A DNA stretch of 64,000 nt from Acidovorax sp. Leaf160 (GCF_001424265.1 NZ_LMOV01000007.1:1-64000), one strand, 5' to 3'; counted from the first letter of the stretch, positions 31,601 through 44,638 are shown. Translations and numbers: made by a program. Notes: a model not told the origin generated them from the sequence alone.

Positions 31601-34600
31601 TCATTGCGCGTCCTCCGCATGGCGGTGCATCTGCGCCTGGTGCGCGTCGTGTTCCTGCTGGCGCTTGCTGCCCTTGAAGAAGGAGCGCACCAGCACGAAG
31701 AACACGGGAACGAACACCACCGCCAGCACGGTGCCGGTGATCATCCCGCCGATCACGCCGGTGCCGATGGCGCGCTGGCTGGCCGAGCTGGCGCCCGAGG
31801 CGATGAACAGGGGCACCACGCCCAGCGTGAACGCCAGCGAGGTCATGATGATCGGGCGGAACCGGAGGTGGGCGGCTTCCAGCGCCGCCTCCAGCACGCT
31901 CTTGCCCTCGGCCTGCAGGTCCTTGGCGAACTCCACGATCAGGATGGCGTTCTTCGCCGAGAGCCCGATGATGGTCACCAGCCCGATCTGGAAGTAGACG
32001 TCGTTCGACATGCCGCGCAGCAGCGTCGCCAGCAGCACGCCCAGCACGCCCAGGGGCACCACCAGCATCACCGACACCGGAATGGTCCAGCTCTCGTACA
32101 GCGCGGCCAGGCACAGGAACACCGCCAGCAGCGAGAACGCGTAGAGGATGGTGGCCTGGGAGCCGGCGAGCTTTTCCTCACGCGACTGGCCGGTCCATTC
32201 GAAGCCGAAGCCCGGAGGCAGCTGGGCGGCCAGGCGCTCCATCTCGGTCATCGCATCGCCGGTGGAATAACCTGGGCCGGCATCGCCCGCGATCTTGATC
32301 GAGGGATAGCCGTTGTAGCGCACCGTCTGCATGGCGCCGGTGATCCAGCGCGTGGTCGCGAAGGTCGAAAGCGGCACGGTCTGGCCCTTGTTGTTCAGCA
32401 CCGGCAGGTCCAGCACCGACTCGGGCTGCATACGTGCCGCGGAGTCGGCCTGCACCACCACGCGCTGCAGGCGGCCCTGGTTCGGGAAGTCGTTGATGTA
32501 GGCCGAGCCCAGCGCCGTGGACAGCGCGCTGCTGATGCTGTCGAACGTGATGCCCAGGGCGTTGGCCTTGTCGCGGTCGATGTCGATCTGCATCTGCGGC
32601 GCGTCTTCCATGCCGTCCGGGCGCACGCCCGCCAGCACCTTGCTCTGCGCCGCCATGCCCAGCAGCTGGTTGCGCGCGCCCAGCAGGGCGTCATGGCCCT
32701 GGGCCGCGCGGTCCTGCAGGCGGAAGTTGAAGCCCGTGCCGGTGCCCAGCTCAGGGATGGGCGGCGGGCTCAGCGCGAAGATGAACGCGTCGCGGATGCC
32801 GGAAAGCGCTCCGAAGGCGCGGCCAGCCACGGCCGAGGCCGAGTGGTCTGCGCCCTCGCGCTCGCTCCAGTCCTTCAGGATCACGAAGGCCAGGCCCGCG
32901 TTCTGCCCCTGGCCCGAGAACGAGAAGCCCGCCACGGTGACGATGTTCTCGACCTCCGGCTGCTTGAGCATGAAGTCTTCCACCTGCGACAGCACCGCCG
33001 ACGTGCGCGACTGCGCCGCACCCGGGGGCAGCTGCACGTTGGTGATGATGTAGCCCTGGTCTTCGTTGGGCAGGAACGACGTGGGCAGGCGGGTGTACAC
33101 CAGCGCCACCGCGCCCAGCAGCACAGCGTAGATGATCATCATGCGGCCGCCGCGGCGCAGCAGCTTGCCCATCCAGCTTTCGTAGCGGTGCGTGGTGCGC
33201 TTGAACGACCGGTTGAACCAGCCGAAGAAGCCCTTCTTCTCTGCATGGTGGTCCGGATCGACGGGCTTGAGCAGTGTGGCGCAGAGCGCCGGCGTGAGCG
33301 ACAGCGCCAGGAAGGCCGAGAAGGCGATGGAGGTGGCCATCGTCGCCGCGAACTGTCGGTAGATGTTGCCGGTGGAGCCGGCGAAGAAGGCCAGCGGCAC
33401 GAACACCGAGATCAGCACCACCGTCACGCCGATCACGGCGCCGGAGATCTGGCCCATGGCCTTGCGCGTCGCCTGCAGCGGCGGCAGGCCTTCCTCGGCC
33501 ATGATCCGCTCGACGTTCTCCACCACCACGATGGCGTCGTCCACCACGATGCCGATCACCAGCACCATGCCGAACATGGTCAGCACGTTGATCGAGAAAC
33601 CCATCGCCAGCAGCGCCCCGAACGTGCCCAGCAGCGCCACCGGCACCACGATGGTCGGGATGATGGTGTAGCGGAAGTTCTGCAGGAACAGGAACATCAC
33701 GATGAACACCAGCACCACGGCTTCGATCAGCGTGTGCACCACCTTCTCGATGGAGACCGACACGAACTTGGAGGTGTCGTACGGCACCACGTAGTTCACG
33801 CCCTGCGGGAAGAATTTCTTGAGCTCTTCCAGCTTGGCCTTGACGGCCTTGGCGGTGGCCAGCGCATTGGCCGACGGGGTGGGCTGCACGCCCAGGCCCA
33901 CGGCCTGCTTGCCGTTGAGGCGCGCGCTGGTGCTGTAGCTCTGCGAACCCAGCTCGATGCGGGCGACGTCGCGCAGGCGCACCGACGAGCCGTCGGTGTT
34001 GGCGCGCAGCACCACGTTGCCGAACTGCTCGGCCGTCGAGAGCTGGCCCTTGACCACGATGGTGGCCGCCACGGGCTGGCCGTTCTCGGCGGGCAGGTCA
34101 CCCAGGTTGCCGGCGGACACCTGCACGTTCTGTGCGCGGATCGCCGCATTCACCTGGTCCAGCGACAGGTTGAAGCCCTTGAGCTTGGCCGGGTCCACCC
34201 AGACGCGCATGGCACGTTCCGAGCCGAACTGCGTCAGCGTGCCGACGCCGGCCACGCGCTGCAGCTCGGGCACCACGTTGCGGGCGGCGTAGTCGTTCAG
34301 CGCCTCGATGCTCACGTCGGGGTTTTCCGTCGTCAGCATCGCGAACATCAGGAAGTTCGAGCGCGACTGCTCCACGCGCACGCCCTGCTGCGTCACCGCG
34401 CTCGGCAACCGCGGCGTGGCGCGCGACAGGCGGTTCTGCACGTCCACCTGCGCCAGGTCGGCGTTGGTGCCGGGCTCGAAGCTCAGCGTGATGGAGCCGG
34501 TGCCGTTGGCCTGGCTGGTCGTCTCGACATACGCCAGGCCCGAAGCGCCGTTCATCTCGCGCTCGATCACCGCGAGCACGCTGTCTTCCAGCGTCTGGGC

Positions 34601-34759
34601 GTTGGCGCCGGGGTAGGCCACCGACACCTGGATGGTCGGCGGCGCCACGGCGGGGTACTGCGCAATCGGCAGCTTGGTGATGGAGATACCCCCCATCACC
34701 ATGATGAAGATCGTGATGACCCATGCAAAGATGGGCCGTTCGATGAAGAACTTGGCCAT
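31601..34759 (-). CDS. RND multidrug efflux pump, HAE1/AcrB type
   Basis: A 1052-residue inner-membrane proton/drug antiporter, the length typical of AcrB and MexB. It begins MAKFFIERPIFAWVITIF and shows the HAE1 motifs, including the proton-relay Asp pair in TM4 (VIGIVVDDAIVVVENVERI). Two large periplasmic loops are present. Substrates are not predictable from sequence. It lies 24 bases downstream of the adaptor gene. Confidence 0.96.
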   Translation of the reverse strand: MAKFFIERPIFAWVITIFIMVMGGISITKLPIAQYPAVAPPTIQVSVAYPGANAQTLEDSVLAVIEREMNGASGLAYVETTSQANGTGSITLSFEPGTNADLAQVDVQNRLSRATPRLPSAVTQQGVRVEQSRSNFLMFAMLTTENPDVSIEALNDYAARNVVPELQRVAGVGTLTQFGSERAMRVWVDPAKLKGFNLSLDQVNAAIRAQNVQVSAGNLGDLPAENGQPVAATIVVKGQLSTAEQFGNVVLRANTDGSSVRLRDVARIELGSQSYSTSARLNGKQAVGLGVQPTPSANALATAKAVKAKLEELKKFFPQGVNYVVPYDTSKFVSVSIEKVVHTLIEAVVLVFIVMFLFLQNFRYTIIPTIVVPVALLGTFGALLAMGFSINVLTMFGMVLVIGIVVDDAIVVVENVERIMAEEGLPPLQATRKAMGQISGAVIGVTVVLISVFVPLAFFAGSTGNIYRQFAATMATSIAFSAFLALSLTPALCATLLKPVDPDHHAEKKGFFGWFNRSFKRTTHRYESWMGKLLRRGGRMMIIYAVLLGAVALVYTRLPTSFLPNEDQGYIITNVQLPPGAAQSRTSAVLSQVEDFMLKQPEVENIVTVAGFSFSGQGQNAGLAFVILKDWSEREGADHSASAVAGRAFGALSGIRDAFIFALSPPPIPELGTGTGFNFRLQDRAAQGHDALLGARNQLLGMAAQSKVLAGVRPDGMEDAPQMQIDIDRDKANALGITFDSISSALSTALGSAYINDFPNQGRLQRVVVQADSAARMQPESVLDLPVLNNKGQTVPLSTFATTRWITGAMQTVRYNGYPSIKIAGDAGPGYSTGDAMTEMERLAAQLPPGFGFEWTGQSREEKLAGSQATILYAFSLLAVFLCLAALYESWTIPVSVMLVVPLGVLGVLLATLLRGMSNDVYFQIGLVTIIGLSAKNAILIVEFAKDLQAEGKSVLEAALEAAHLRFRPIIMTSLAFTLGVVPLFIASGASSASQRAIGTGVIGGMITGTVLAVVFVPVFFVLVRSFFKGSKRQQEHDAHQAQMHRHAEDAQ

Positions 34760-34783
34760 GTGCCGCGCTCCTTGTTTTTGTTC

Positions 34784-36058
34784 TTACGACTTGGCGGGGG
34801 CCGCGGCAGGGGCCGATGCGGGGGCGGCGGCCGGGTTGGCGCCGGGGGCCTGCCAGGGCACGGGGTTCACGACGATCGGGTCGCCGGGCTTGCCGCGCGG
34901 CAGCTTCTGGAAGCCGTCCACCATCACCTTTTCACCGGCCTTGAGGCCATCGGTCACCACCCAGTTGGTGCCTTGCGCCGGGCCCAGCTTCACAGTGCGG
35001 GGCGTGAGGTGGTTGTCCGGGCCCACCACCATCACGGTGTCGCCCTTGGCCGAGCGCGTCACGGCCTGCTGCGGCAGCAGCACGCCGTTGTCCACCTGGG
35101 CCTGTTCCAGCCGCACGCGCACGTACAGGCCGGGCAGCAGCAGGCGGTCGGGGTTCGGGATCTCGGCGCGCAGCGTCACCTGGCCGCTGGTGGCGTCCAC
35201 CGTGAGGTCGGTGAACAGCAGCCGGCCCGTCTGGCCGTACACGCTGCCGTCTTCCAGCACCACGCGCACGTTGGCCGAGCCGCTGGCCGACTGCTTGTAC
35301 TTGCCGCTGGCGATCGCCGTGCGCAGCTTGAGCGCGTCCGCCGCCGACTGGGTGAAGTTCACGTAGAGCGGATTGATCTGCTGGATGACCGCCAGCTCGG
35401 TGGCCGTGCCCTGGCCCACCAGCGCGCCTTCGGTCACCAGCGCACGGCCGATGCGGCCGGAGATGGGCGCCGTCACCGCGGCGTAGCCCAGATTGATGCG
35501 CGCCGAGGTCACGCCCGCGCGGGCGGCCGCCAGGTTGGCTTCAGCCGTTTTCTGCGAGGCGACCGCGTTGTCGTATTCCTGCTTGCTGATGGCGTTCACC
35601 GCCACGAGCGGCCGATAGCGGTCCGCCAGCGACTTGGTCTGCGCCACGTTGGCCTCGGCCTGCGCCACGCTGGCCTGTGCGCTTTCCAGCGTGGCCTGGT
35701 AGGGCGCGCTGTCGATGGTGAAGAGCCGCTGGCCGGCCTTGACGTCGCTGCCTTCGGTGAAGAGGCGCTTTTGCAGGATGCCGGCAGCCCGTGCGCGCAC
35801 TTCCGCGACCCTGGACGCTTCCAGCCGGCCCGGCAGTTCGGTGACCAGGCCCACGTCACCGGGAGTCACGGTCACCACGCCCACCTGGGCGGGCGGCTGT
35901 TGCTGCTGCTGTGCGGGGGCCGCGCCCTCTTCGGGCTTCTTGCCGCAACCGCTCAGCACGAGTGCTGCCACCAGGGCAGCGGCCACGGTCGAGGAGGTGG
36001 TGCCGAAGCGGGACAGGGAGGCGGGGTGGAGGGCGGAGTCGTCGGGCAGGCGCTGCAT
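34784..36058 (-). CDS. RND efflux periplasmic adaptor, AcrA type
   Basis: A 424-residue membrane-fusion protein. The start is the ATG of MQRLPDDSAL behind AAAGGA. It has a lipoprotein signal ending at Cys38 (VAALVLSGC), a short poly-Gln linker (49-53), a split lipoyl domain, a helical hairpin and beta-barrel domains, and an Ala/Pro-rich tail. It joins the pump to the outer-membrane duct. It is the first gene of the operon and divergent from the repressor. Confidence 0.94.
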   Translation of the reverse strand: MQRLPDDSALHPASLSRFGTTSSTVAAALVAALVLSGCGKKPEEGAAPAQQQQQPPAQVGVVTVTPGDVGLVTELPGRLEASRVAEVRARAAGILQKRLFTEGSDVKAGQRLFTIDSAPYQATLESAQASVAQAEANVAQTKSLADRYRPLVAVNAISKQEYDNAVASQKTAEANLAAARAGVTSARINLGYAAVTAPISGRIGRALVTEGALVGQGTATELAVIQQINPLYVNFTQSAADALKLRTAIASGKYKQSASGSANVRVVLEDGSVYGQTGRLLFTDLTVDATSGQVTLRAEIPNPDRLLLPGLYVRVRLEQAQVDNGVLLPQQAVTRSAKGDTVMVVGPDNHLTPRTVKLGPAQGTNWVVTDGLKAGEKVMVDGFQKLPRGKPGDPIVVNPVPWQAPGANPAAAPASAPAAAPAKS

Positions 36059-36174
36059 GGAAGTCCTTTGAGTCAAGGCAAGGCAACAAGCGGAAAGAAG
36101 GGAATTCCGATCGGCCGGCTTCCCAGTCGGCACACGCCGGCACGGGGAAGGGGTTTCGGAAAAACCGCAGATTG

Positions 36175-36198
36175 TACATACAAACATGAATGTATAAT
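36175..36198. promoter_or_regulatory. AcrR-type operator between adaptor and repressor genes
   Basis: TACATACA followed by eight bases and TGTATAAT forms an interrupted palindrome. It closely resembles, from memory, the E. coli AcrR operator (TACATACATT...AATGTATGTA). It lies in the 189-base divergent gap, 50 bases before the repressor ATG, placed to control both directions. Confidence 0.75.
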
Positions 36199-36247
36199 TA
36201 CTGCGACGGCGCTTTTCACGACGCCGGGCAGGAGGCAATCCCCACCC

Positions 36248-36874
36248 ATGGCTAGAAGAACCAAACAGGATGCAGATGCTACGCGTTCGCGTCTGCTCGA
36301 CGCAGCGGAGCAAGTTTTCTACGACAAGGGGGTCTCCCGCGCGTCGTTGAACGACATCGCCTGCGCGGCGGGTGCGACCCGGGGCGCCATCTACTGGCAC
36401 TTCAAGGACAAGGGCGACCTGTTCAACGCGATGATGGACCGCGCGACCTCGCCGCTGCAGAAAGCGGTGCACGACGACGAAGCGTTCTCCCGCGCGAAGG
36501 AAGAGCCGCTCCAGCGGCTGCGTGACCGCATCGACTACGTGCTGCGCAGCATATCGACCGATGCGCGGACCTGCCGCGTGTTCGAGATCGCGCTGTTCCG
36601 TGTCGAATACGTGGACGAACTGGCGAGTGCGCGCGACCGGCACATGTCGGAGTGCGGCAGCTTTCAGCAGAAGCTGAAGGACGACCTGCAGGACGCCGCC
36701 GCGGCGCAGGGCATCACGCTGCCGCAGGGCGCACAGTGCGCGGCCATCGGGCTGCGCTCCGTCTTCGAAGGGTTGATGCAGATCTGGTTGCTCAACCCTG
36801 CCGACTTCGATCTGGTGGCCGTCAGCCGCACGGTGGTGGACGCTTATCTCAAGGGCTTGGGTTTCAGGCTCTGA
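36248..36874 (+). CDS. TetR-family efflux repressor, AcrR/TtgR-like
   Basis: A 208-residue regulator. The N-terminal TetR helix-turn-helix spans about residues 12-58 (RSRLLDAAEQVFYDKGVSRASLNDIACAAGATRGAIYWHF). The ligand-binding part resembles AcrR and TtgR (RVFEIALFRVEYVDEL, SVFEGLMQIWLLNP). It starts at the ATG after an AGGAGG site. It most likely represses both itself and the divergent efflux operon through the operator at 36175-36198, releasing on binding a drug. Confidence 0.94.
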   Translation: MARRTKQDADATRSRLLDAAEQVFYDKGVSRASLNDIACAAGATRGAIYWHFKDKGDLFNAMMDRATSPLQKAVHDDEAFSRAKEEPLQRLRDRIDYVLRSISTDARTCRVFEIALFRVEYVDELASARDRHMSECGSFQQKLKDDLQDAAAAQGITLPQGAQCAAIGLRSVFEGLMQIWLLNPADFDLVAVSRTVVDAYLKGLGFRL

Positions 36875-36925: not shown

Positions 36926-37001
36926 GCGGCTGTAGCTCAGTGGATAGAGTATTGGCCTCCGAAGCCAAGGGTCGTGGGTTCGATCCCCGCCAGCCGCACC
37001 A
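36926..37001 (+). tRNA. tRNA-Arg (anticodon CCG)
   Basis: A 76-base cloverleaf with acceptor GCGGCTG (36926-36932) and CAGCCGC (36991-36997), discriminator A and encoded CCA (36999-37001). The D-loop (TAGCTCAGTGGATAGA), anticodon loop with CCG and TpsiC arm (GGGTTCGATCC) are all present. It reads CGG codons. A GATAAT at 36883-36888 is a -10 candidate. There is no integrase beside it. Confidence 0.97.
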
Positions 37002-37148: not shown

Positions 37149-38432
37149 TCAGCTGCTTTCGGCGGCTGCGCGCCCGTGAGAACCCGCGTCCGCATCCGAA
37201 TCCGCGCGCTCCAGCGTGTAGAGCGCCACGTCCACCCGCCCGGTCCGGAAGCCGGCCTCGCAGTAGCACAGGTAATACACCCACAGGCGGCGAAACGCCT
37301 CGTTGAAGCCGAGCGCTTCGATGCGCGGCCAGGCGCGCAGGAAGCGGTGCCGCCATTCCGCCAGCGTGAGCGCATAGCTCGGGCCGAAGGCCTCGCGGCT
37401 CACCAGCCGCAGCCCGGCGCGTTCGGCCTCGGCCTGCACGATCCCGGCCGTGGGCAGCATGCCGCCCGGAAAGATGAAGCGCTGGATGAAGTCCGGCTCG
37501 GCGCGGTAGCGTGCGAACTGGTCCTGCGCGATGGTGATGGCCTGCACCACCGCCACCCCGCCGGGCCGCAGGCAGCCGTGCAGGGCGGCGAAATACGCGG
37601 GCCAGTACGCTTCGCCCACGGCCTCCAGCATCTCGATGGAGACGATGCGGTCGTACCGGCCCTGCTCGTCGCGGTAGTCCTGCAGCTTCGCATCCACCCG
37701 CCGGCCCACGCCGGCTGCGCGCACGCGCCCGGTGGTGTGGCGCAGCTGTTCCTGGGACAGGGTGAGCGCGGTGACGTGGCCGCGCGGCGCGGCCAGTGCC
37801 AGGCGCTCTGCGAGCGCTCCCCAGCCGCAGCCGATTTCCAGCACCTGCGAGTCTTCGCGCAGGTCCAGCTCATCCAGGATGCGCTGCAGCTTGATGGCTT
37901 GGGCTTCTTCCAGCGACTCGGCGCCGGTGACGTGCATCGCGCTGGAGTAGAGCATGCTGGCGTCCAGCCACTCGGCGTAGAACTCGTTGCCCAGGTCGTA
38001 ATGGAAGGCGATGTTGTCGCGGCTGCCGCGCCGCGTGTTGCGTCGCAGGCCATGCGCCAGCCGGTGCAGCCAGCGCACGGGCAGGCTGGCGTGCAGGGTG
38101 GACCCCCAGGCCGCCTCGTTGCGAAGGCCCACCTCCAGCAAGGCGGTGAGATCGGGCGTGGACCAGTCGCCATCCCGGTACGAGCGCGCCAGCCCGATGT
38201 CCCCGCTGGTCAACAGGCGCCATACCGGGCGCCAGCGATGCAGCGTCAGCCGCGCGCGCGGGCCGGGTTGGGGGCCCTGGCCGTCGAGGGTCGACCCGCC
38301 GGGCAGGGTGATCGACAGCGAGCCCACCTGCAAGTGGCGCAGCAGCCGCTGCAGCACGCCGCGCAGCGGCCAGGACCTGCCGCGCGAGTGCCGGGTGTTC
38401 AGCTCTGAGGGAGGGGGTGATGGAATGTGCAT
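37149..38432 (-). CDS. cfa: Cyclopropane-fatty-acyl-phospholipid synthase family
   Basis: A 427-residue SAM-dependent enzyme acting on unsaturated chains of membrane phospholipids. The SAM-binding motif is VLEIGCGWGALAERL (197-211), and the family's FHYDLGNEFYAEWLD and FIFPGGMLP segments are present. The N-terminal lipid-binding part (about 1-140) is complete. It is 24 bases after the DUF1365 gene, the last gene of the oxidase-DUF1365-CFA operon. Whether the product is a cyclopropane or a methylated fatty acid cannot be told. Confidence 0.94.
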   Translation of the reverse strand: MHIPSPPPSELNTRHSRGRSWPLRGVLQRLLRHLQVGSLSITLPGGSTLDGQGPQPGPRARLTLHRWRPVWRLLTSGDIGLARSYRDGDWSTPDLTALLEVGLRNEAAWGSTLHASLPVRWLHRLAHGLRRNTRRGSRDNIAFHYDLGNEFYAEWLDASMLYSSAMHVTGAESLEEAQAIKLQRILDELDLREDSQVLEIGCGWGALAERLALAAPRGHVTALTLSQEQLRHTTGRVRAAGVGRRVDAKLQDYRDEQGRYDRIVSIEMLEAVGEAYWPAYFAALHGCLRPGGVAVVQAITIAQDQFARYRAEPDFIQRFIFPGGMLPTAGIVQAEAERAGLRLVSREAFGPSYALTLAEWRHRFLRAWPRIEALGFNEAFRRLWVYYLCYCEAGFRTGRVDVALYTLERADSDADAGSHGRAAAESS

Positions 38433-38456
38433 GTCAGTCAGCAGCGGACGGCGTCG

Positions 38457-39302
38457 TCAATGACCGGGGGGAGGAGAGGCGGTGGATGCGGGTGGGGTCG
38501 GCACCCGCGCGGGCATGCTGACCGCCTGCGCAGGAGGCGCCGGCTTGGGGTGGAAGCCGACGCGCTTGGCCAGCAGCTGCAGCGCTTCCCAGTGGATCGC
38601 TGCAACGACCTTCACCGTGAGCAGCGGGTGCGACCAGAACGCCCGCAGCAGGGTGGCATCGGTCAGCGGCCGGCGTTCGGCCCGCAGATCGGCGGTCAGC
38701 AGCGCGCCTTGCGCAGCGCGGGCGGCGATGTGCAGGGCGAGATCGGGGCTGTCCGGCCCCGGTGGCGACACGGTGAAGTCGTAGTGCATGTCCAGCCCCA
38801 GGAAGGGCGAGACGTGGAAGTTCTTGGCGCATGTCTGCCTGACCGCACCGTCGGGTGACGCGCGGGCCGAAGGTGACACCGGCAGCAGGTAGCTGTGCCG
38901 TTCGCCGAAGGTGTTGTTCACCTCGTAGAGGATGGCCTGCAGCCGGCCCGCCGCGTCGCGGCAGAAATACACCGTGAGCGGATTGAAGGCGTAGCCCAGG
39001 ATGCGCGGCATGGTCAGCAGCTGGATCGCGCCGCCGGCGGGAAGACCGGCCGCCTGCAGTTGCCGCTCCACATAGGCGCGCAGGCCGCCCGGCGTGCCGT
39101 CTCCATGGTCGCGCTCGTGCCAGCTGCACAGGTTGAACGCGTTGGCCGAAAACCAGCGCAGCCGCTGGTGCAGCCGGGGCAGCTCGTCCAGGTCGATCAA
39201 GAGGTAGTACACGCCGTAGCGCAGCCGGTGCCGGCGGGGCTGCAGCCGCTGGTGCGCGACCGAGCCCACGTACAGGGCCGATGCGCCGGCGCCGGCTTTC
39301 AT
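38457..39302 (-). CDS. DUF1365 protein
   Basis: A 281-residue DUF1365 protein (SALYVGSVAHQRLQPRRHRLRYGVYYLLIDLDEL near the start, and RILGYAFNPLTVYFC). The family is nearly always found beside the flavin oxidase and CFA synthase, as here, and in SigE/ChrR regulons, but its activity is not known. Its start overlaps the oxidase stop by four bases. It is 24 bases before cfa. Confidence 0.94.
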   Translation of the reverse strand: MKAGAGASALYVGSVAHQRLQPRRHRLRYGVYYLLIDLDELPRLHQRLRWFSANAFNLCSWHERDHGDGTPGGLRAYVERQLQAAGLPAGGAIQLLTMPRILGYAFNPLTVYFCRDAAGRLQAILYEVNNTFGERHSYLLPVSPSARASPDGAVRQTCAKNFHVSPFLGLDMHYDFTVSPPGPDSPDLALHIAARAAQGALLTADLRAERRPLTDATLLRAFWSHPLLTVKVVAAIHWEALQLLAKRVGFHPKPAPPAQAVSMPARVPTPPASTASPPPGH

Positions 39303-40690
39303 GCCGCGCGCACCTCGGGCGCGGGCAGGTGGATGCGGTCCGACTCGCCCGGCACGCTCCAGGGCCTGCGCACCCCGCCCAGGGCTTCCGCGACGGCCAG
39401 CCCGGCCTGCAGGCCGTCCTCGTGGAAACCCGAGCCGAAGTAGGCGCCGCAGAACCAGGTGCGTTGCCGGCCCTGCAGCGACCAGAGCGCCCGCTGCGCC
39501 CGCAGCGCCGCAGCGTCGAAGCGCGGGTGCTCATAGGTCTGCGTGAACACGTGGTGCTGCGCAGCCGGCTCCTGCAGCGGGTTCAGCGTCAGGAACCAGT
39601 CCGTGCCCGCCGGCAGCGGCTGCAGCCGGTTCATCCAGTAGCTCACGCACAGGCCATCCGACTGCGACCGGTCTGCCAGGTAGTTCCAGCTGGACCACAC
39701 CGCCCGGCGGCGCGGCATGAGGGCCGGATCGGTGTGCAGCACCGCCCGGTTGCGGGTGTACGCGAACGCGCCCAGCAGGGCCTGTTCGTCGTCGCTGGGA
39801 CGGGGCAGCAGGCGCAGGGCCTGGTCCGCATGGGTGGCGATGACCACTTGGTCGAACCGGCCGGACTCGCGGGCATCCGCCGTGCGCACGAACGCCCCGC
39901 CCGGCGTGCGACGGACCTCCACCGCAGCCTTGCCCAGCCGCAAGCGCGACCCCAGGGCGGCCGTCATCCGCTGCACGTAGTTGCGGCTGCCGCCGCGCAC
40001 GGTGCGCCAGGCGGGGCGGTCGCCCAGGCGCAGCAGATGGTGGTTCTCGCAGAAGCGTACGAAGGCCTCCACCGGATACTGGCCGACCTGATCGGCCGGC
40101 GTGGACCAGATGGCGGCCGCCATCGGATAGAGGTGGTCTTCACGAAAGGCCCGGCCGTAGCCCTGGCGGTCCAGGAAGTCGTCCAGCGGCACCAGCCCGT
40201 ACTGCGCAGCCAGCTGCGGGGCCTGCCGATAGAAGCGGACCAGGTCGCGCAGCATCGCGAAGAACCGGGGCCGCAGCAGGTTGCGGCGCTGGGCGAAGAG
40301 TCCGCCCAGGCCGGAGCCGCTGTATTCCAGCGCGCCGCGGTCCAGGCTCACGGCAAACGACATGTCGGTGGCGACGGTCTCCACGTCCAGGTGGCGGAAC
40401 AAGGCCGTCAGGTTGGGGTAGGCCGCCTCGTTGAAGACGATGAAGCCCGTATCCACCGGCACCCGCCCCTGGGCGCTGGCGACGTCCACCGTGTGGGCGT
40501 GCCCTCCCGGGCGCTGCTCGGCTTCGAACAGCGTCACCCGGTGGCATCCGGACAGCAGCCATGCGGCCGACAGGCCGGAGATGCCACTGCCGATCACGGC
40601 GACATCCAGCGCCTTGCCCGACTCCTGATTGACTGCCCGCTCCCGAGGGCTCCCCGTAGCGGGGTTTTCTTCTACTTGCAAATACGACAT
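39299..40690 (-). CDS. FAD-dependent amine-oxidase-like protein
   Basis: A 463-residue flavoprotein with an N-terminal dinucleotide-binding fold (VAVIGSGISGLSAAWLL, GSGISG at 34-39). The family partners DUF1365 and CFA synthase in lipid-modification loci; a role as fatty-acid desaturase or oxidase is suspected. The ATG at 40690 has no Shine-Dalgarno. An ECF promoter-like CGTA ends eight bases upstream, so the mRNA may be leaderless. The first 28 residues before the fold are unusual and the start could lie further in. It leads the operon. Confidence 0.92.
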   Translation of the reverse strand: MSYLQVEENPATGSPRERAVNQESGKALDVAVIGSGISGLSAAWLLSGCHRVTLFEAEQRPGGHAHTVDVASAQGRVPVDTGFIVFNEAAYPNLTALFRHLDVETVATDMSFAVSLDRGALEYSGSGLGGLFAQRRNLLRPRFFAMLRDLVRFYRQAPQLAAQYGLVPLDDFLDRQGYGRAFREDHLYPMAAAIWSTPADQVGQYPVEAFVRFCENHHLLRLGDRPAWRTVRGGSRNYVQRMTAALGSRLRLGKAAVEVRRTPGGAFVRTADARESGRFDQVVIATHADQALRLLPRPSDDEQALLGAFAYTRNRAVLHTDPALMPRRRAVWSSWNYLADRSQSDGLCVSYWMNRLQPLPAGTDWFLTLNPLQEPAAQHHVFTQTYEHPRFDAAALRAQRALWSLQGRQRTWFCGAYFGSGFHEDGLQAGLAVAEALGGVRRPWSVPGESDRIHLPAPEVRAA

Positions 40691-40698
40691 GTGACTTG

Positions 40699-40724
40699 TA
40701 CGGCAACCTGCGGCATTTGGATTT
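40699..40724 (-). promoter_or_regulatory. Putative ECF-sigma promoter of the oxidase operon
   Basis: On the minus strand, AAATCC (40724-40719) and CGTA (40702-40699) are separated by 16 bases, with ATCCAAAT at the -35. Spacing is the same as at 40753-40778 and 44638-44613. The gene ATG follows after eight bases. Confidence 0.65.
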
Positions 40725-40752
40725 CCGCACGCGCGAAGGCCCGCAGGCGCTG

Positions 40753-40778
40753 TGATCTAATGCCGCGAGCGCTGCGTA
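40753..40778 (+). promoter_or_regulatory. Putative ECF-sigma autoregulatory promoter
   Basis: TGATCT (40753-40758), a 16-base spacer and CGTA (40775-40778). From memory, this fits the TGATC-type promoter of RpoE/ChrR-family sigma factors. The sigma ATG lies eight bases after CGTA. Confidence 0.7.
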
Positions 40779-40786
40779 ACAGCAGC

Positions 40787-41449
40787 ATGACCACCGCCTT
40801 TTCGCCGTCAGACTGGCCAGCCCCGGCGGCGAGGTCGCGGCCGTCCTACCTGTCGATCGTGACCACGAACCCTCCCAGCGGCGCGATGCCGAGCGGCGAC
40901 GAGTTGAGCGCCTGGCTCCACGCCGTCGCGGCTCACCAAGACCGGCAGGCTTTTGCCGCCGTGTTCAAGCATTTCGCGCCCCGGGTGAAAGCCTACCTGA
41001 TGCGGCTGGGCAGTTCCGAGGCGCTAGCCGAAGAGCTGATGCAGGAAACGATGGTGAGCGTCTGGCGCAAGGCCGCGCTGTACGACGCGGGCCATGCGGG
41101 CGTTTCCACCTGGATCTTCACCATCGCCCGCAACCTGCGCGTGGACCAGCTGCGCCGCAAGGGCCAGATGCTGACGGTCGACGGGGACGACTGCGATGCC
41201 GACACGCTGGAAGACAGCGCACCGCAACCCGACGAGCAGCTCAGCATCCACGAACGCGAAGCGCGGTTGCGCGACGCGTTGCGCCAGCTGTCGCAGGAGC
41301 AGGCGCACATCCTGCGGCTGTCGTTCTTCGAAGAGCATCCGCATGCCCGCATTGCCCAGGAACTGGGCATTCCCCTCGGCACCGTGAAGTCGCGCGTTCG
41401 GCTTGCCATCCAACATCTGCGCCGGCTGCTGGGCGCGCTCGAGCCATGA
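40787..41449 (+). CDS. ECF-family sigma factor, RpoE/ChrR type
   Basis: A 220-residue ECF sigma factor. Region 2 is LMQETMVSVWRKAALYDA, STWIFTIARNLRVDQLRRK; region 4 is LRQLSQEQAHILRLSFFEEH, ARIAQELGIPLGTVKSRVR. It has an N-terminal extension of about 45 residues. The start is the ATG at 40787, eight bases after the -10; an in-frame ATG at 40760 lies within the promoter and is unlikely. Its stop overlaps the anti-sigma start (ATGA). In Rhodobacter the homologous pair responds to singlet oxygen. Confidence 0.92.
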   Translation: MTTAFSPSDWPAPAARSRPSYLSIVTTNPPSGAMPSGDELSAWLHAVAAHQDRQAFAAVFKHFAPRVKAYLMRLGSSEALAEELMQETMVSVWRKAALYDAGHAGVSTWIFTIARNLRVDQLRRKGQMLTVDGDDCDADTLEDSAPQPDEQLSIHEREARLRDALRQLSQEQAHILRLSFFEEHPHARIAQELGIPLGTVKSRVRLAIQHLRRLLGALEP

Positions 41450-42111
41450 TCCGCCACCATCCTGAAGACGCGTTGATGCTCGCCTATGCGGCAGGCCAGT
41501 TGCCGGCCGGGCCCGCCATCGTGGTCGCCAGCCACATCGAACGCTGCCCTCACTGCTGCCAGCGCCTGCAGGCGTTCGAGGCCTGGGGCGGCGCGCTGCT
41601 GGAAACCGCCGAGCCCGCTGTACTGCAGCCGGAGGCACTGGCGCGCACCCTGGCCGCCATCGAAGCGCAAGACGCCTCGCCCCGCCCCCCGCGCGTTGCC
41701 TCCCCCGCCCGGGCACCCCGGCCGGCCCTGCCGCCCGGCGTGCGCTGGCCGCAGGCACTGCGTGGCTGCACCGTGGCGCCCTGGCGCTGGGTGGGCCCGG
41801 GCATGCACTGGAGCCGGGTGACGGTGCCGCACGCGCCGGACAGCAACCTCTTCCTGCTGCGCATGGCGGCCGGCAAGAAGCTGCCGGTGCACAGCCACAG
41901 CGACCTGGAGATGACGCAGGTTCTGTACGGCTCCTTCCACGATGGGCGCCAGCACTACGGGGCAGGCGACTTCGACGGCGCCGACGACACCGTGCACCAC
42001 CAGCCCGTGGTGTCGGGCGACGGCGTCTGCATCTGCCTGGCCAGCGTGCAGGGCAGCCTGCTGCCGGCGGGCCGCATCGCTCGCGTCATCGGCCGGCTCG
42101 TCGGGCTTTGA
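41446..42111 (+). CDS. ChrR-like anti-sigma factor, zinc and cupin domains
   Basis: A 221-residue ChrR-type anti-sigma factor. The N-terminal zinc anti-sigma domain has His5, His30, Cys34 and Cys37 (SHIERCPHC). The C-terminal cupin domain (about 105-210) has a metal-site-like VHSHSDLEMTQVL and a downstream HH pair. In Rhodobacter the first domain holds the sigma factor and the second is needed to respond to singlet oxygen. It is translationally coupled to the sigma gene, which fits a one-to-one complex. Confidence 0.92.
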   Translation: MIRHHPEDALMLAYAAGQLPAGPAIVVASHIERCPHCCQRLQAFEAWGGALLETAEPAVLQPEALARTLAAIEAQDASPRPPRVASPARAPRPALPPGVRWPQALRGCTVAPWRWVGPGMHWSRVTVPHAPDSNLFLLRMAAGKKLPVHSHSDLEMTQVLYGSFHDGRQHYGAGDFDGADDTVHHQPVVSGDGVCICLASVQGSLLPAGRIARVIGRLVGL

Positions 42112-42171
42112 CCTGCGGGGCCGCGCGGCGCACCGGCGGCGGGGTGGGCAGGCCTCGTTTACGCCGCCGGG

Positions 42172-42582
42172 TCAGTCCGAGCCGAAGCGCAGTGCCACGG
42201 CGCACGCTGCGCCTGCCGACATCGCGGTGACGAAGGTGCCCCAGCACAGGTCGGCCAGCGTCACCGTCCAGGGCCAGTCGCGCAAGGTGGCCTGGTTGGT
42301 CAGGTCGTAGGTCGCATAGGCCAGCAGGCCCAGCAGCGCGCCGCAACCCATCGCCGCCGCCCAGCTGCCGCTGGCAAGGCCCGGCCGCACGGCGAAGATG
42401 ACGGCACCGGCCACATACAGCACATAGAAGATCGCCGCCGGCGCCAGGGCGAAGCCCTCGCGCATCAGGTGCCCGATGGCCGGGCGGTACAGGCGGTCGG
42501 CCATGGCGCTGAGCCACACCGCATCGAGCGCGAGGAAGACAACGGCGAAGACACCGTAGGCGATGGCAAGCTGGCGGATCAT
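42172..42582 (-). CDS. DUF2177 membrane protein
   Basis: A 136-residue integral membrane protein with four predicted helices (AIAYGVFAVVFLALDAVWL, FALAPAAIFYVLYVAGAVIF, GCGALLGLLAYATYD, LADLCWGTFVTAM). The family is of unknown function and is often found in SigE/ChrR loci. The ATG at 42582 has an AGGT-poor context. It is the last gene of the second lipid operon, 100 bases after the DUF1295 gene. Confidence 0.88.
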   Translation of the reverse strand: MIRQLAIAYGVFAVVFLALDAVWLSAMADRLYRPAIGHLMREGFALAPAAIFYVLYVAGAVIFAVRPGLASGSWAAAMGCGALLGLLAYATYDLTNQATLRDWPWTVTLADLCWGTFVTAMSAGAACAVALRFGSD

Positions 42583-42682
42583 GGTGAGGTCATCCTGTGT
42601 CGAGTGGGGTGGATGGGAGGGGGTGGACGGAGTGGACGGAGCGGGTGGAGGGGGCGATGGGAAAACGGGGTCCGGCGCGCAT

Positions 42683-43483
42683 TCAGCGCCGTCGCACGGG
42701 GCCGGGCACGAAGGCATTGGTGCGGGCGACGTAGTCGCGGTAGCCCGGGCGGCGGTCGCTCATGTCCTTTTCCTGCAGCGTGACGCCCGATACGCGCAGC
42801 AGCAGCACGGTCATCAGCGCCGGAGAGACCACCGTCCACGCAGCGGCCCAGCCCGCGCCGCCAAGCGCCGCGCACCAGAGGCCCCACCACAGGCAGGCCT
42901 CGCCGAAGTAGTTGGGATGGCGGCTGTAGCGCCACAGGCCCATATCCATCACGGCGCCCTGGTTCCCGCGCCCGGCCCTGAAGCGGGCCATCTGCGCGTC
43001 GGCCACGGCCTCGAACGCAATGCCGAAGCACGCCAGCGACAGTCCCGCCACATCGAGTGCGCCCAGGGGCCGGTCGCCCCACACCCCGGCCAGCAGCGGG
43101 GCCGACACCACCCAGGCCAGCAGCGCCTGCAACCCGAACACCAGATAGAGGCTGCGCCAGCCGAAGTGGGGCTGGTTGCGCGCGCGGATCGCCTGGTAGC
43201 GCCGGTCCTCGCCGTGGCCCCAGTTGCGCAGGGTGATGAAGGCCGACAGGCGCACGGCCCACGCCGTGGCCAGCGCCACCATGAGCGGGCCGCGGATGCC
43301 GGTGTGGCTGTCCGGCTGCAGCGCCAGGTAGGCGCAGCCGGCCCCGGCGATGCACAGCCCCCAGACCCGGTCCGCCAGGCTGGCGTCGTGGCGTTGCAGG
43401 CTGGCGCACCAGGTGCCCAGCGCCAGCAGCCCGATCCAGGCCAGGCCTGCCAGGGCGGTCACGGTCAGCGGCATCGCGTCCAT
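42683..43483 (-). CDS. DUF1295 membrane protein
   Basis: A 266-residue integral membrane protein of the DUF1295 group, related in fold to steroid reductases and isoprenylcysteine methyltransferases. Several hydrophobic helices and the GLWRYSRHPNYFGEACLWWGLW signature are visible (RHPNYFGE), as in NADPH or SAM-dependent lipid enzymes. It is 24 bases downstream of the second methyltransferase gene. The substrate is probably a membrane lipid or fatty acid (inference). Confidence 0.92.
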   Translation of the reverse strand: MDAMPLTVTALAGLAWIGLLALGTWCASLQRHDASLADRVWGLCIAGAGCAYLALQPDSHTGIRGPLMVALATAWAVRLSAFITLRNWGHGEDRRYQAIRARNQPHFGWRSLYLVFGLQALLAWVVSAPLLAGVWGDRPLGALDVAGLSLACFGIAFEAVADAQMARFRAGRGNQGAVMDMGLWRYSRHPNYFGEACLWWGLWCAALGGAGWAAAWTVVSPALMTVLLLRVSGVTLQEKDMSDRRPGYRDYVARTNAFVPGPVRRR

Positions 43484-43507
43484 GGTGCGGCCTCCGTGCG
43501 GTGCGCC

Positions 43508-44554
43508 TCAGTCGCGCCCGGCGAACAGGTAGTGGCTCACCCACCACTGCTGGCCGCCCTGGTAGCCGAACAGCTCGGCCACCGCCATGAAGAAGAGCCG
43601 CCAGCGCACCCACCAGGCATCGGCCGCTTCGCCGTAGGTGGCCACGAACAGCGGCCGCAGCGCGGCCCGGTGCGCATCCATGCGCGCCAGCCAGGCCTCG
43701 GCCGTGCGCTGGTAATGCGTGCCGTCCCAGCGCCAGCGGTCCAGCAGCCGCAGATCGTCCTGGCAGTGCAGCGCCAGGTCGTCGCTGGGCATCATGCCGC
43801 CGGAGAAGAAATAGCGGCTCATCCAGTCGCTCTCGTCGCGCACCTCGAAAGCGTAGGGCGCCTCGCGGTGCGTGAACACGTGCAGGAAGAACCGGCCACC
43901 CGGCGCCAGCCAGCGGGCCACGTGCGAGAACGCGCGCGGCCAGTTGCGCAGATGCTCGAACATCTCCACCGACACGATGCGGTCGAAGCGTTCGCTGGTG
44001 TCGAAGACGTTGAAGTCGCAGGTGACCACCCGCAGGTTGGTCAGGCCGCGGGCCTGGGCCTGCGACTCGATGTAGTGGCGCTGCGAGTGCGAATTGGATA
44101 CGGCCGTGATGCGGCTCGCGGGGTAGCGCTCGGCCATCCAGAGCGTGAGTGAACCCCAGCCGCAGCCCAGCTCCAGCACTGCCTGGCCGTCCTGCAGGTC
44201 GGCATGCTCGCAGGTCTGCTGCAGCGCGCAGGCTTCCGACGCTTCCAGGCTGTCGCTGTCCGCCGGCCACCAGCCGCTGCTGTACTTGCGATGCGGCCCC
44301 AGCACCGTGCCGAAGAACGCCTCGGGCAGCTCGTAGTGCTGTTCATTGGCCTTTTCGGGCACCAGCGCCAGGTCGGCCTGCCGCATGCCGCGCAGGAACG
44401 CCCGCGTCGCTTCGGCAGTGAAGGCCGTATCGCCGCTGTGCAGTTCCGCCAGCCGGTCGCGCAGCAGCTGCCGCATGCCCAGCCGCACGGCGGGGTCCGG
44501 CACGCGGCCTCGTTCGACCCAGCGGATGGCGGTGGCAACGGCGGCAGTGGGCAT
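43508..44554 (-). CDS. Second CFA-like SAM-dependent methyltransferase
   Basis: A 348-residue SAM-dependent methyltransferase of the cyclopropane synthase/coclaurine methyltransferase group. SAM motif VLELGCGWGSLTLW (126-139); KANEQHYELPEAFFGTVLG stands in place of the CFA YDLGN segment; FFSGGMMPS corresponds to the family's FPGG. It differs clearly from the first CFA synthase of the locus. A relative in Rhodobacter (part of its RpoE regulon) methylates fatty acids on the way to furan fatty acids, so a similar role is possible. It is first in its operon behind an ECF promoter-like element. Confidence 0.9.
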   Translation of the reverse strand: MPTAAVATAIRWVERGRVPDPAVRLGMRQLLRDRLAELHSGDTAFTAEATRAFLRGMRQADLALVPEKANEQHYELPEAFFGTVLGPHRKYSSGWWPADSDSLEASEACALQQTCEHADLQDGQAVLELGCGWGSLTLWMAERYPASRITAVSNSHSQRHYIESQAQARGLTNLRVVTCDFNVFDTSERFDRIVSVEMFEHLRNWPRAFSHVARWLAPGGRFFLHVFTHREAPYAFEVRDESDWMSRYFFSGGMMPSDDLALHCQDDLRLLDRWRWDGTHYQRTAEAWLARMDAHRAALRPLFVATYGEAADAWWVRWRLFFMAVAELFGYQGGQQWWVSHYLFAGRD

Positions 44555-44612
44555 GGGGTGCTTCTTGGGTGGGTGTTGGAGAGCGCAGGGCGGCAGCCCC
44601 GTCCGTGCCCTC

Positions 44613-44638
44613 TACGTGTCCCGCAGCGATTTGGATTG
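44613..44638 (-). promoter_or_regulatory. Putative ECF-sigma promoter of the second lipid operon
   Basis: On the minus strand, CAATCC (44638-44633) and CGTA (44616-44613) are separated by 16 bases, with the same ATCCAAAT -35 block as at 40722-40715. The gene's ATG is 58 bases downstream. Confidence 0.65.

Follow-up and report, generated by a model that had tools for sequence, protein, structure and literature searches.

An RpoE-ChrR-type promoter code shared by a sigma factor gene and two predicted furan-lipid operons in Acidovorax sp. Leaf160

The locus described here occupies nucleotides 37149-44638 of a 64,000-nucleotide stretch of Acidovorax sp. Leaf160 DNA (GCF_001424265.1, NZ_LMOV01000007.1:1-64000; hereafter the window) and contains eight genes in three transcription units. 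The middle unit, on the plus strand, encodes an extracytoplasmic function (ECF) sigma factor of the ChrR-associated RpoE type (40787-41449) and a ChrR anti-sigma factor (41446-42111), whose genes overlap by 4 bp. The sigma protein consists of Pfam regions 2 and 4 with no further domains, and its closest solved relative is the RpoE protein of Rhodobacter sphaeroides (2q1z/2z2s; 2q1z_A, E 8e-39). The ChrR protein scores 184 bits against TIGR02451 (cut-off of 124.5), and among solved structures R. sphaeroides ChrR (2z2s) is its best relative. In an alignment to chain B of 2z2s, the ChrR zinc motif (HxxxCxxC) is kept as HIERCPHC, and the cupin ligands (HxHxxxE ... H) are kept as HSHSDLE and VHHQP. 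The sigma-ChrR switch is of a known type. An original prediction for this DNA had proposed an ECF sigma/ChrR pair with a parallel in Rhodobacter; the pair is upheld by Pfam, TIGR02451 and the solved-structure relatives, and the parallel by the match of both proteins to the solved R. sphaeroides complex.

Each transcription unit starts with an ECF11-type promoter. The sigma-chrR promoter (40753-40778, plus strand) reads TGATCT-N16-CGTA, the promoter of the divergent ufaD-ufaO-ufaM operon (40699-40724, minus strand) reads AAATCC-N16-CGTA, and the promoter of an operon for a methyltransferase (MT), a DUF1295 protein and a DUF2177 protein (44613-44638, minus strand) reads CAATCC-N16-CGTA. Direct reading of the sequence places all three sites where the original prediction had located them and finds ATCCAAAT, its proposed shared stretch, in both minus-strand copies. 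When both strands of the 64 kb window are searched, the pattern ATCY-N16-CGTA has exactly three matches, one at the head of each transcription unit, compared with a mean of 0.66 in dinucleotide shuffles (at least three matches in 1/100). When the AA common to all three sites is included (ATCYAA-N14-CGTA), three matches are again observed, and the shuffle mean is 0.03 (at least three in 0/100). A reversed-pattern control was set aside, as the reversed pattern holds the rare CTAG. The window sites match the published RpoE-ChrR promoter TGATCC-N16-CGTA, which is the consensus of the ChrR-type sigma group in Pseudomonas syringae (PMC5507510) and also in Shewanella, with start sites determined by mapping (PMC4336711). 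The sigma gene carries the autoregulatory form TGATCY-N16-CGTA. The first two bases consistently differ between the two classes, with TG at the autoregulatory promoter and mostly AA, CA or GA at effector promoters; in a few relatives, an effector promoter begins with CG.

The promoter code was followed through ∼20 kb around the sigma gene from 16 genus genomes and from other genera of the family, with the eight genes mapped by tblastn. The sigma gene is present in 17/17 genus genomes. Apart from a second sigma-chrR copy that is not linked (L077), every locus compared has the sigma-gene site. Among the loci with ufaD nearby, only two lack the ufaD site, and no locus with the MT gene lacks the MT site. 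In the 508 kb of orthologous loci taken together, 88 sites have a spacing of 16, and spacings of 13, 14, 15, 17, 18 and 19 yield 2, 13, 9, 3, 16 and 4 sites, respectively. At the ufaD and MT/DUF1295 sites, ATCCAA and CGTA are the only columns invariant over the 17 genus genomes; at the sigma-gene sites, TGATCTAAT, CGTA and a few spacer bases are invariant in 17/17. Among named alphaproteobacterial loci, a spacing-16 site lies at the sigma gene in 30/32 and at ufaD near chrR in 24/31, with none or one site at other spacings. A ∼10 kb block splits the sigma gene from ufaD in two sister species (G132 and G135), and both sides retain their own site; in three relatives without the MT gene in the operon, the site now precedes DUF1295. 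These results bear on an explanation in which all three sites arose by chance or serve another regulator in divergent intergenic DNA and a housekeeping sigma factor expresses the lipid operons. The loose pattern is short, its first two bases vary between sites, and 41 genome-wide matches outside the locus fall in coding sequence, as that explanation would expect. However, the only three matches in the window are all at operon starts, the exact motif columns are invariant while the spacer is free, and sites are retained where operons are split or genes lost. A chance origin is ruled out by the shuffles and the conservation, and the explanation as a whole is very improbable. One promoter code is common to sigma-chrR and both effector operons.

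The ATG of the sigma gene lies 8 nt past CGTA in the window. A script detected an ATG 8-11 nt past CGTA with a downstream in-frame N-terminal peptide of the P-x-L-S-I-V type at 24/27 loci; the remaining three (L056, L075 and L079) failed only the text filter of the script, and their ATG is evident by eye. Because any later start would exclude the conserved LSIV peptide, translation appears to begin at the ATG near CGTA, which implies a sigma mRNA that is leaderless or has a leader of ∼0-3 nt. The ufaD ATG is likewise located 8 nt past CGTA in the window and its two sister species. A near-leaderless ufaD start was rejected as a general trait, as other relatives mostly have a gap of 25-64 nt, often with GAGGA. 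The unlinked copy at L077 (G070:C143) is a second sigma-chrR pair in a relative, lacks both lipid genes and the site, and may be a differently tuned paralogue.

The divergent operon on the minus strand encodes a ufaD-like FAD-dependent fatty acyl desaturase (39299-40690; RSP1091 type, Pfam Amino_oxidase/NAD_binding_8), a ufaO-like DUF1365 protein predicted to form the furan ring (38457-39302; RSP1090 type, PF07103 279 bits, 4-bp overlap with ufaD) and a ufaM-like fatty acyl methylase (37149-38432; RSP2144 type, CMAS 252 bits, UfaM clade). In R. sphaeroides and Rhodopseudomonas palustris, the Cfa-like methylase UfaM, the amine-oxidase-like desaturase UfaD and the DUF1365 protein UfaO generate the monomethyl furan fatty acid 9M5-FuFA, which FufM (RPA0924) methylates to 9D5-FuFA (PMC7380195). 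The three homologues are in one locus in the window, in the same ufaD-ufaO-ufaM order as in R. palustris. In the genome of the window, DUF1365 is represented by a single gene, and the only two genes with a strong CMAS match both lie at the locus. Two ordinary Cfa enzymes that make cyclopropane fatty acids rather than furan fatty acids could be considered, since Pfam CMAS matches both methyltransferases and databases label such genes cfa. However, the first methyltransferase scores far under the Cfa equivalog cut-offs (228 bits vs 600 and 225 vs 400), lies beside ufaD and ufaO, clusters with UfaM proteins at a support of 100/100 and is 48% identical to the R. palustris UfaM encoded beside ufaO, and the second belongs to a separate clade with R. 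palustris. Cyclopropane products are thus improbable, and the operon very probably represents the ufaD-ufaO-ufaM furan fatty acid pathway, with furan products predicted. The originally proposed lipid-modifying targets stand as lipid genes, but not as generic cyclopropanation genes.

The second effector operon, also on the minus strand, encodes a FufM-type fatty acyl methylase candidate for the conversion of 9M5- to 9D5-furan fatty acid (43508-44554), a DUF1295 membrane protein (42683-43483; PF06966 216 bits) and a DUF2177 predicted membrane protein (42172-42582; PF09945 154 bits, alternative in-frame start at 42717). The methylase clade is distinct from UfaM (support 100/100), and its R. palustris member shares 48% identity with the window protein over 342 aa. 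That member comes from strain JSC-3b; its gene adjoins a DUF1295 gene, and its identity to UfaM-type proteins is 27-30%, compared with the 26% published for RPA0924. Because it is the sole full-length CMAS protein there besides UfaM, the R. palustris member of this family is very probably FufM, the enzyme of dimethyl-furan synthesis. Among 398 genomes of the phylum, DUF1365 is present in 29/32 methylase genomes vs 123/366 others (Fisher p 2e-10, relatedness ignored). The two genes lie within 6 kb of each other in 20 of the 29 genomes holding both, as counted by hand from two tables. Around 84 methylase loci, DUF1295 was detected in 69, UfaD in 62 and DUF2177 in 48, and the loci without chrR nearby include Planctomycetota, Kuenenia, Pelagicoccus and Bryobacterales. 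Given this co-occurrence and the chrR-free loci, the methylase module tracks furan-lipid genes more closely than it tracks ChrR.

Several arrangements around this module were observed in other organisms. Between 42582 and 42683, the window lacks the DUF6134 gene that separates DUF2177 from DUF1295 in most relatives. A plasmid of Acinetobacter sp. WY4 (L102, 1912-8038) contains a run of fatty acyl desaturase-ufaD-ufaO-ufaM-DUF1295-MT genes by a two-component system and no sigma-chrR; from its gene content, this run is a predicted mobile furan-lipid cassette with another regulator. On a plasmid of Cupriavidus sp. USMAHM13 (L101), genes for a photolyase and a TetR regulator adjoin the furan-lipid and FufM genes, with no chrR in the stretch shown. 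Far outside Proteobacteria, ufaD-ufaO-ufaM adjoins a FufM-type methylase in metagenome-assembled genomes of Bryobacterales, Planctomycetota and Kuenenia (L173-L175, L180 and L181).

Sites elsewhere were collected by a genome-wide pattern search, in which strict matches from the 17 genus genomes were sorted by their position relative to genes. Twenty-four strict sites lie just upstream of a gene, most of them on a few orthologous groups. In the genome of the window, TGATCC-N16-CGTA precedes msrP (C25:251964, L006; also in G132 and G135) and a periplasmic glutathione peroxidase gene (C26:162982, L007; also in G135), and a site lies upstream of the chemoreceptor gene 'RSIRQWL' (C1:110004, L087; also in G132, G135 and G126) and of a further chemoreceptor gene (C12:272906, L089; also in G089, G121 and G134). 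The same search places sites upstream of an NIT-domain receptor gene in G089, G135 and G134, a fasciclin gene in three other species and an alpha/beta hydrolase gene in four species, whose product is mostly 42-51% identical to a hydrolase of many alphaproteobacterial loci. Site-preceded chemoreceptor genes were also noted at L190, L195, L205, L207, L212 and L213 in several species. For msrP, glutathione peroxidase and 'RSIRQWL', orthologues in sister species also carry the site; at msrP, the motif is common and the spacer differs. Recurrence in close relatives arises partly by descent and is not fully independent evidence. Glutathione peroxidase is a known RpoE2-ChrR target in Shewanella (PMC4336711), and fasciclin is a known RpoE or singlet-oxygen target elsewhere. 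The recurrent TGATCCCGGTGAACGTGGATCCCGTA matches and the repeat matches in G130 and G131 were discounted, being probably coding sequence or repeats rather than promoters. Confinement of the pattern to the locus seemed true with the AA-containing pattern and was dropped once strict matches were sorted relative to genes. The proposed self-contained regulon of eight genes is therefore not supported, since the pattern, searched genome-wide as had been suggested, is not confined to the three units. The sigma switch seems to reach repair enzymes and chemoreceptors beyond the locus; as targets, chemoreceptors are new as far as the literature search reached.

Known systems share the core of this arrangement. 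The R. sphaeroides core regulon (RSP1092-1093, RSP1087-1091 and RSP2143-2144) likewise combines an ECF11 sigma factor with a zinc-cupin ChrR, uses the same type of -35/-10 code and has ufaM, ufaD and ufaO as targets, with ufaD-ufaO adjoining the sigma gene. In contrast, the window has ufaM inside the ufaD-ufaO operon, an added FufM-DUF1295-DUF2177 operon, no RSP1087-1089 genes and photolyases without a detected site. The P. syringae DC3000 regulon of PSPTO_1043/1042 has an identical consensus, cfa/DUF1365/oxidase-type targets and an esterase target, whereas katG and a diguanylate cyclase are further targets there; chemoreceptors are not reported among its targets in the portion of the text searched (PMC5507510). 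Shewanella oneidensis RpoE2-ChrR uses the same promoter, with mapped start sites, and targets the periplasmic glutathione peroxidase gene pgpD, but it has phrB in the main operon, and a FufM operon is not listed among its targets (PMC4336711). In Chlamydomonas, the strongest SAK1-dependent singlet-oxygen-induced genes include CFA1, CFA2, DUF1365, DUF1295, DUF2177, fasciclin, GPX5 and MSRA3 (PMC4067076). This likeness to the window regulon and its relatives, drawn by family name only, is found in a eukaryote with an unrelated regulator (PMC4067076). A 2021 review tied GPX5 and the CFA genes to the Rhodobacter furan lipids (PMC8491031); a literature search found no mention of DUF1295 or DUF2177 in the context of this Chlamydomonas-Rhodobacter link.

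The locus is interpreted as the core of an RpoE-ChrR (ECF11) regulon that induces furan-lipid synthesis, with wider targets included and with a predicted signal, ChrR breakdown, enzyme activities and feedback loop, at a probability of roughly 0.82. This interpretation is favored because the sites match the consensus at a fixed spacing, the ChrR ligands are kept, the ufa genes agree in order and homology, the methylase co-occurs with DUF1365, the same families are induced in Chlamydomonas and additional targets are found. Singlet oxygen is the signal predicted from homology and from the induction of the same families in Chlamydomonas. A less probable alternative is that the promoters are real and that the main signal is an organic hydroperoxide, superoxide or another envelope oxidant instead of light or singlet oxygen. 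The examined part of the window contains no sign of phototrophy, and tert-butyl hydroperoxide (t-BOOH) likewise releases RpoE in R. sphaeroides (PMC6852236). However, the ChrR cupin domain, which is needed for the singlet-oxygen but not the t-BOOH response (PMC6852236), keeps its ligands here, and singlet oxygen induces the furan fatty acid, fasciclin, DUF1295 and DUF2177 families in other organisms. Other points weigh against the RpoE-ChrR furan-lipid interpretation. The TG of the canonical -35 element is absent from both effector sites. No site was detected around either of the two photolyase genes in the genome, so photolyase was rejected as a target here, though it is usually a core target. 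In Stenotrophomonas, rpoE-chrR, with its ChrR homologue, is linked to superoxide tolerance (PMC11832516), a point that also favors the alternative signal. The FufM candidate was assigned by homology and by elimination of other CMAS proteins.

Under the RpoE-ChrR interpretation, ChrR would keep the sigma factor inactive via its zinc domain, and membrane-damaging oxidants, either singlet oxygen or organic hydroperoxides, would lead to ChrR breakdown and free the sigma factor. Free sigma factor would guide RNA polymerase to TGATCY/AATCC-N16-CGTA promoters and boost the sigma-chrR operon, which would be transcribed as a nearly leaderless mRNA. Free sigma factor would also turn on ufaD-ufaO-ufaM, whose products are predicted to convert cis-vaccenoyl chains of phospholipids into monomethyl furan fatty acid. 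In the second operon, the FufM-type methylase would add the dimethyl furan step alongside the DUF1295 and DUF2177 membrane proteins. The scattered targets would be msrP, periplasmic glutathione peroxidase and chemoreceptor genes, and the response would include envelope repair. The furan lipids would scavenge singlet oxygen and would probably also be needed for ChrR breakdown, closing a feedback loop as in Rhodobacter, in which ChrR turnover depends on furan-lipid genes (PMC6852236).

Beyond the 3′ end of ufaM, the window directly continues into a tRNA-Arg(CCG) gene (36926-37001). Next to the locus, at 31601-36874, is an operon for RND efflux together with a divergently oriented gene for a TetR-type regulator.

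The locus places furan fatty acid synthesis under predicted ChrR control in a non-alphaproteobacterial lineage, in a compact form with a fully readable promoter code, and the Rhodobacter feedback model, in which furan lipids are needed for ChrR breakdown, therefore becomes testable outside alphaproteobacteria. The DUF1295 and DUF2177 families would be attached to bacterial furan-lipid and singlet-oxygen biology, matching their induction in Chlamydomonas. As a tentative joint reading, the FufM-DUF1295-DUF2177 operon might constitute a second, conserved half of the pathway to furan lipids, in which DUF1295 and DUF2177 would perform steps of their own. In combination with fasciclin, glutathione peroxidase and methionine sulfoxide repair, this module might form a singlet-oxygen acclimation kit common to bacteria and green algae. 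In the same tentative reading, the sigma factor of the genus might also install chemoreceptors and so couple photo-oxidative stress to taxis. The chemoreceptor sites suggest that oxidative stress could feed directly into chemotaxis, a link relevant to the unexplained reduction of swimming by chrR deletion in P. syringae (PMC11813219).

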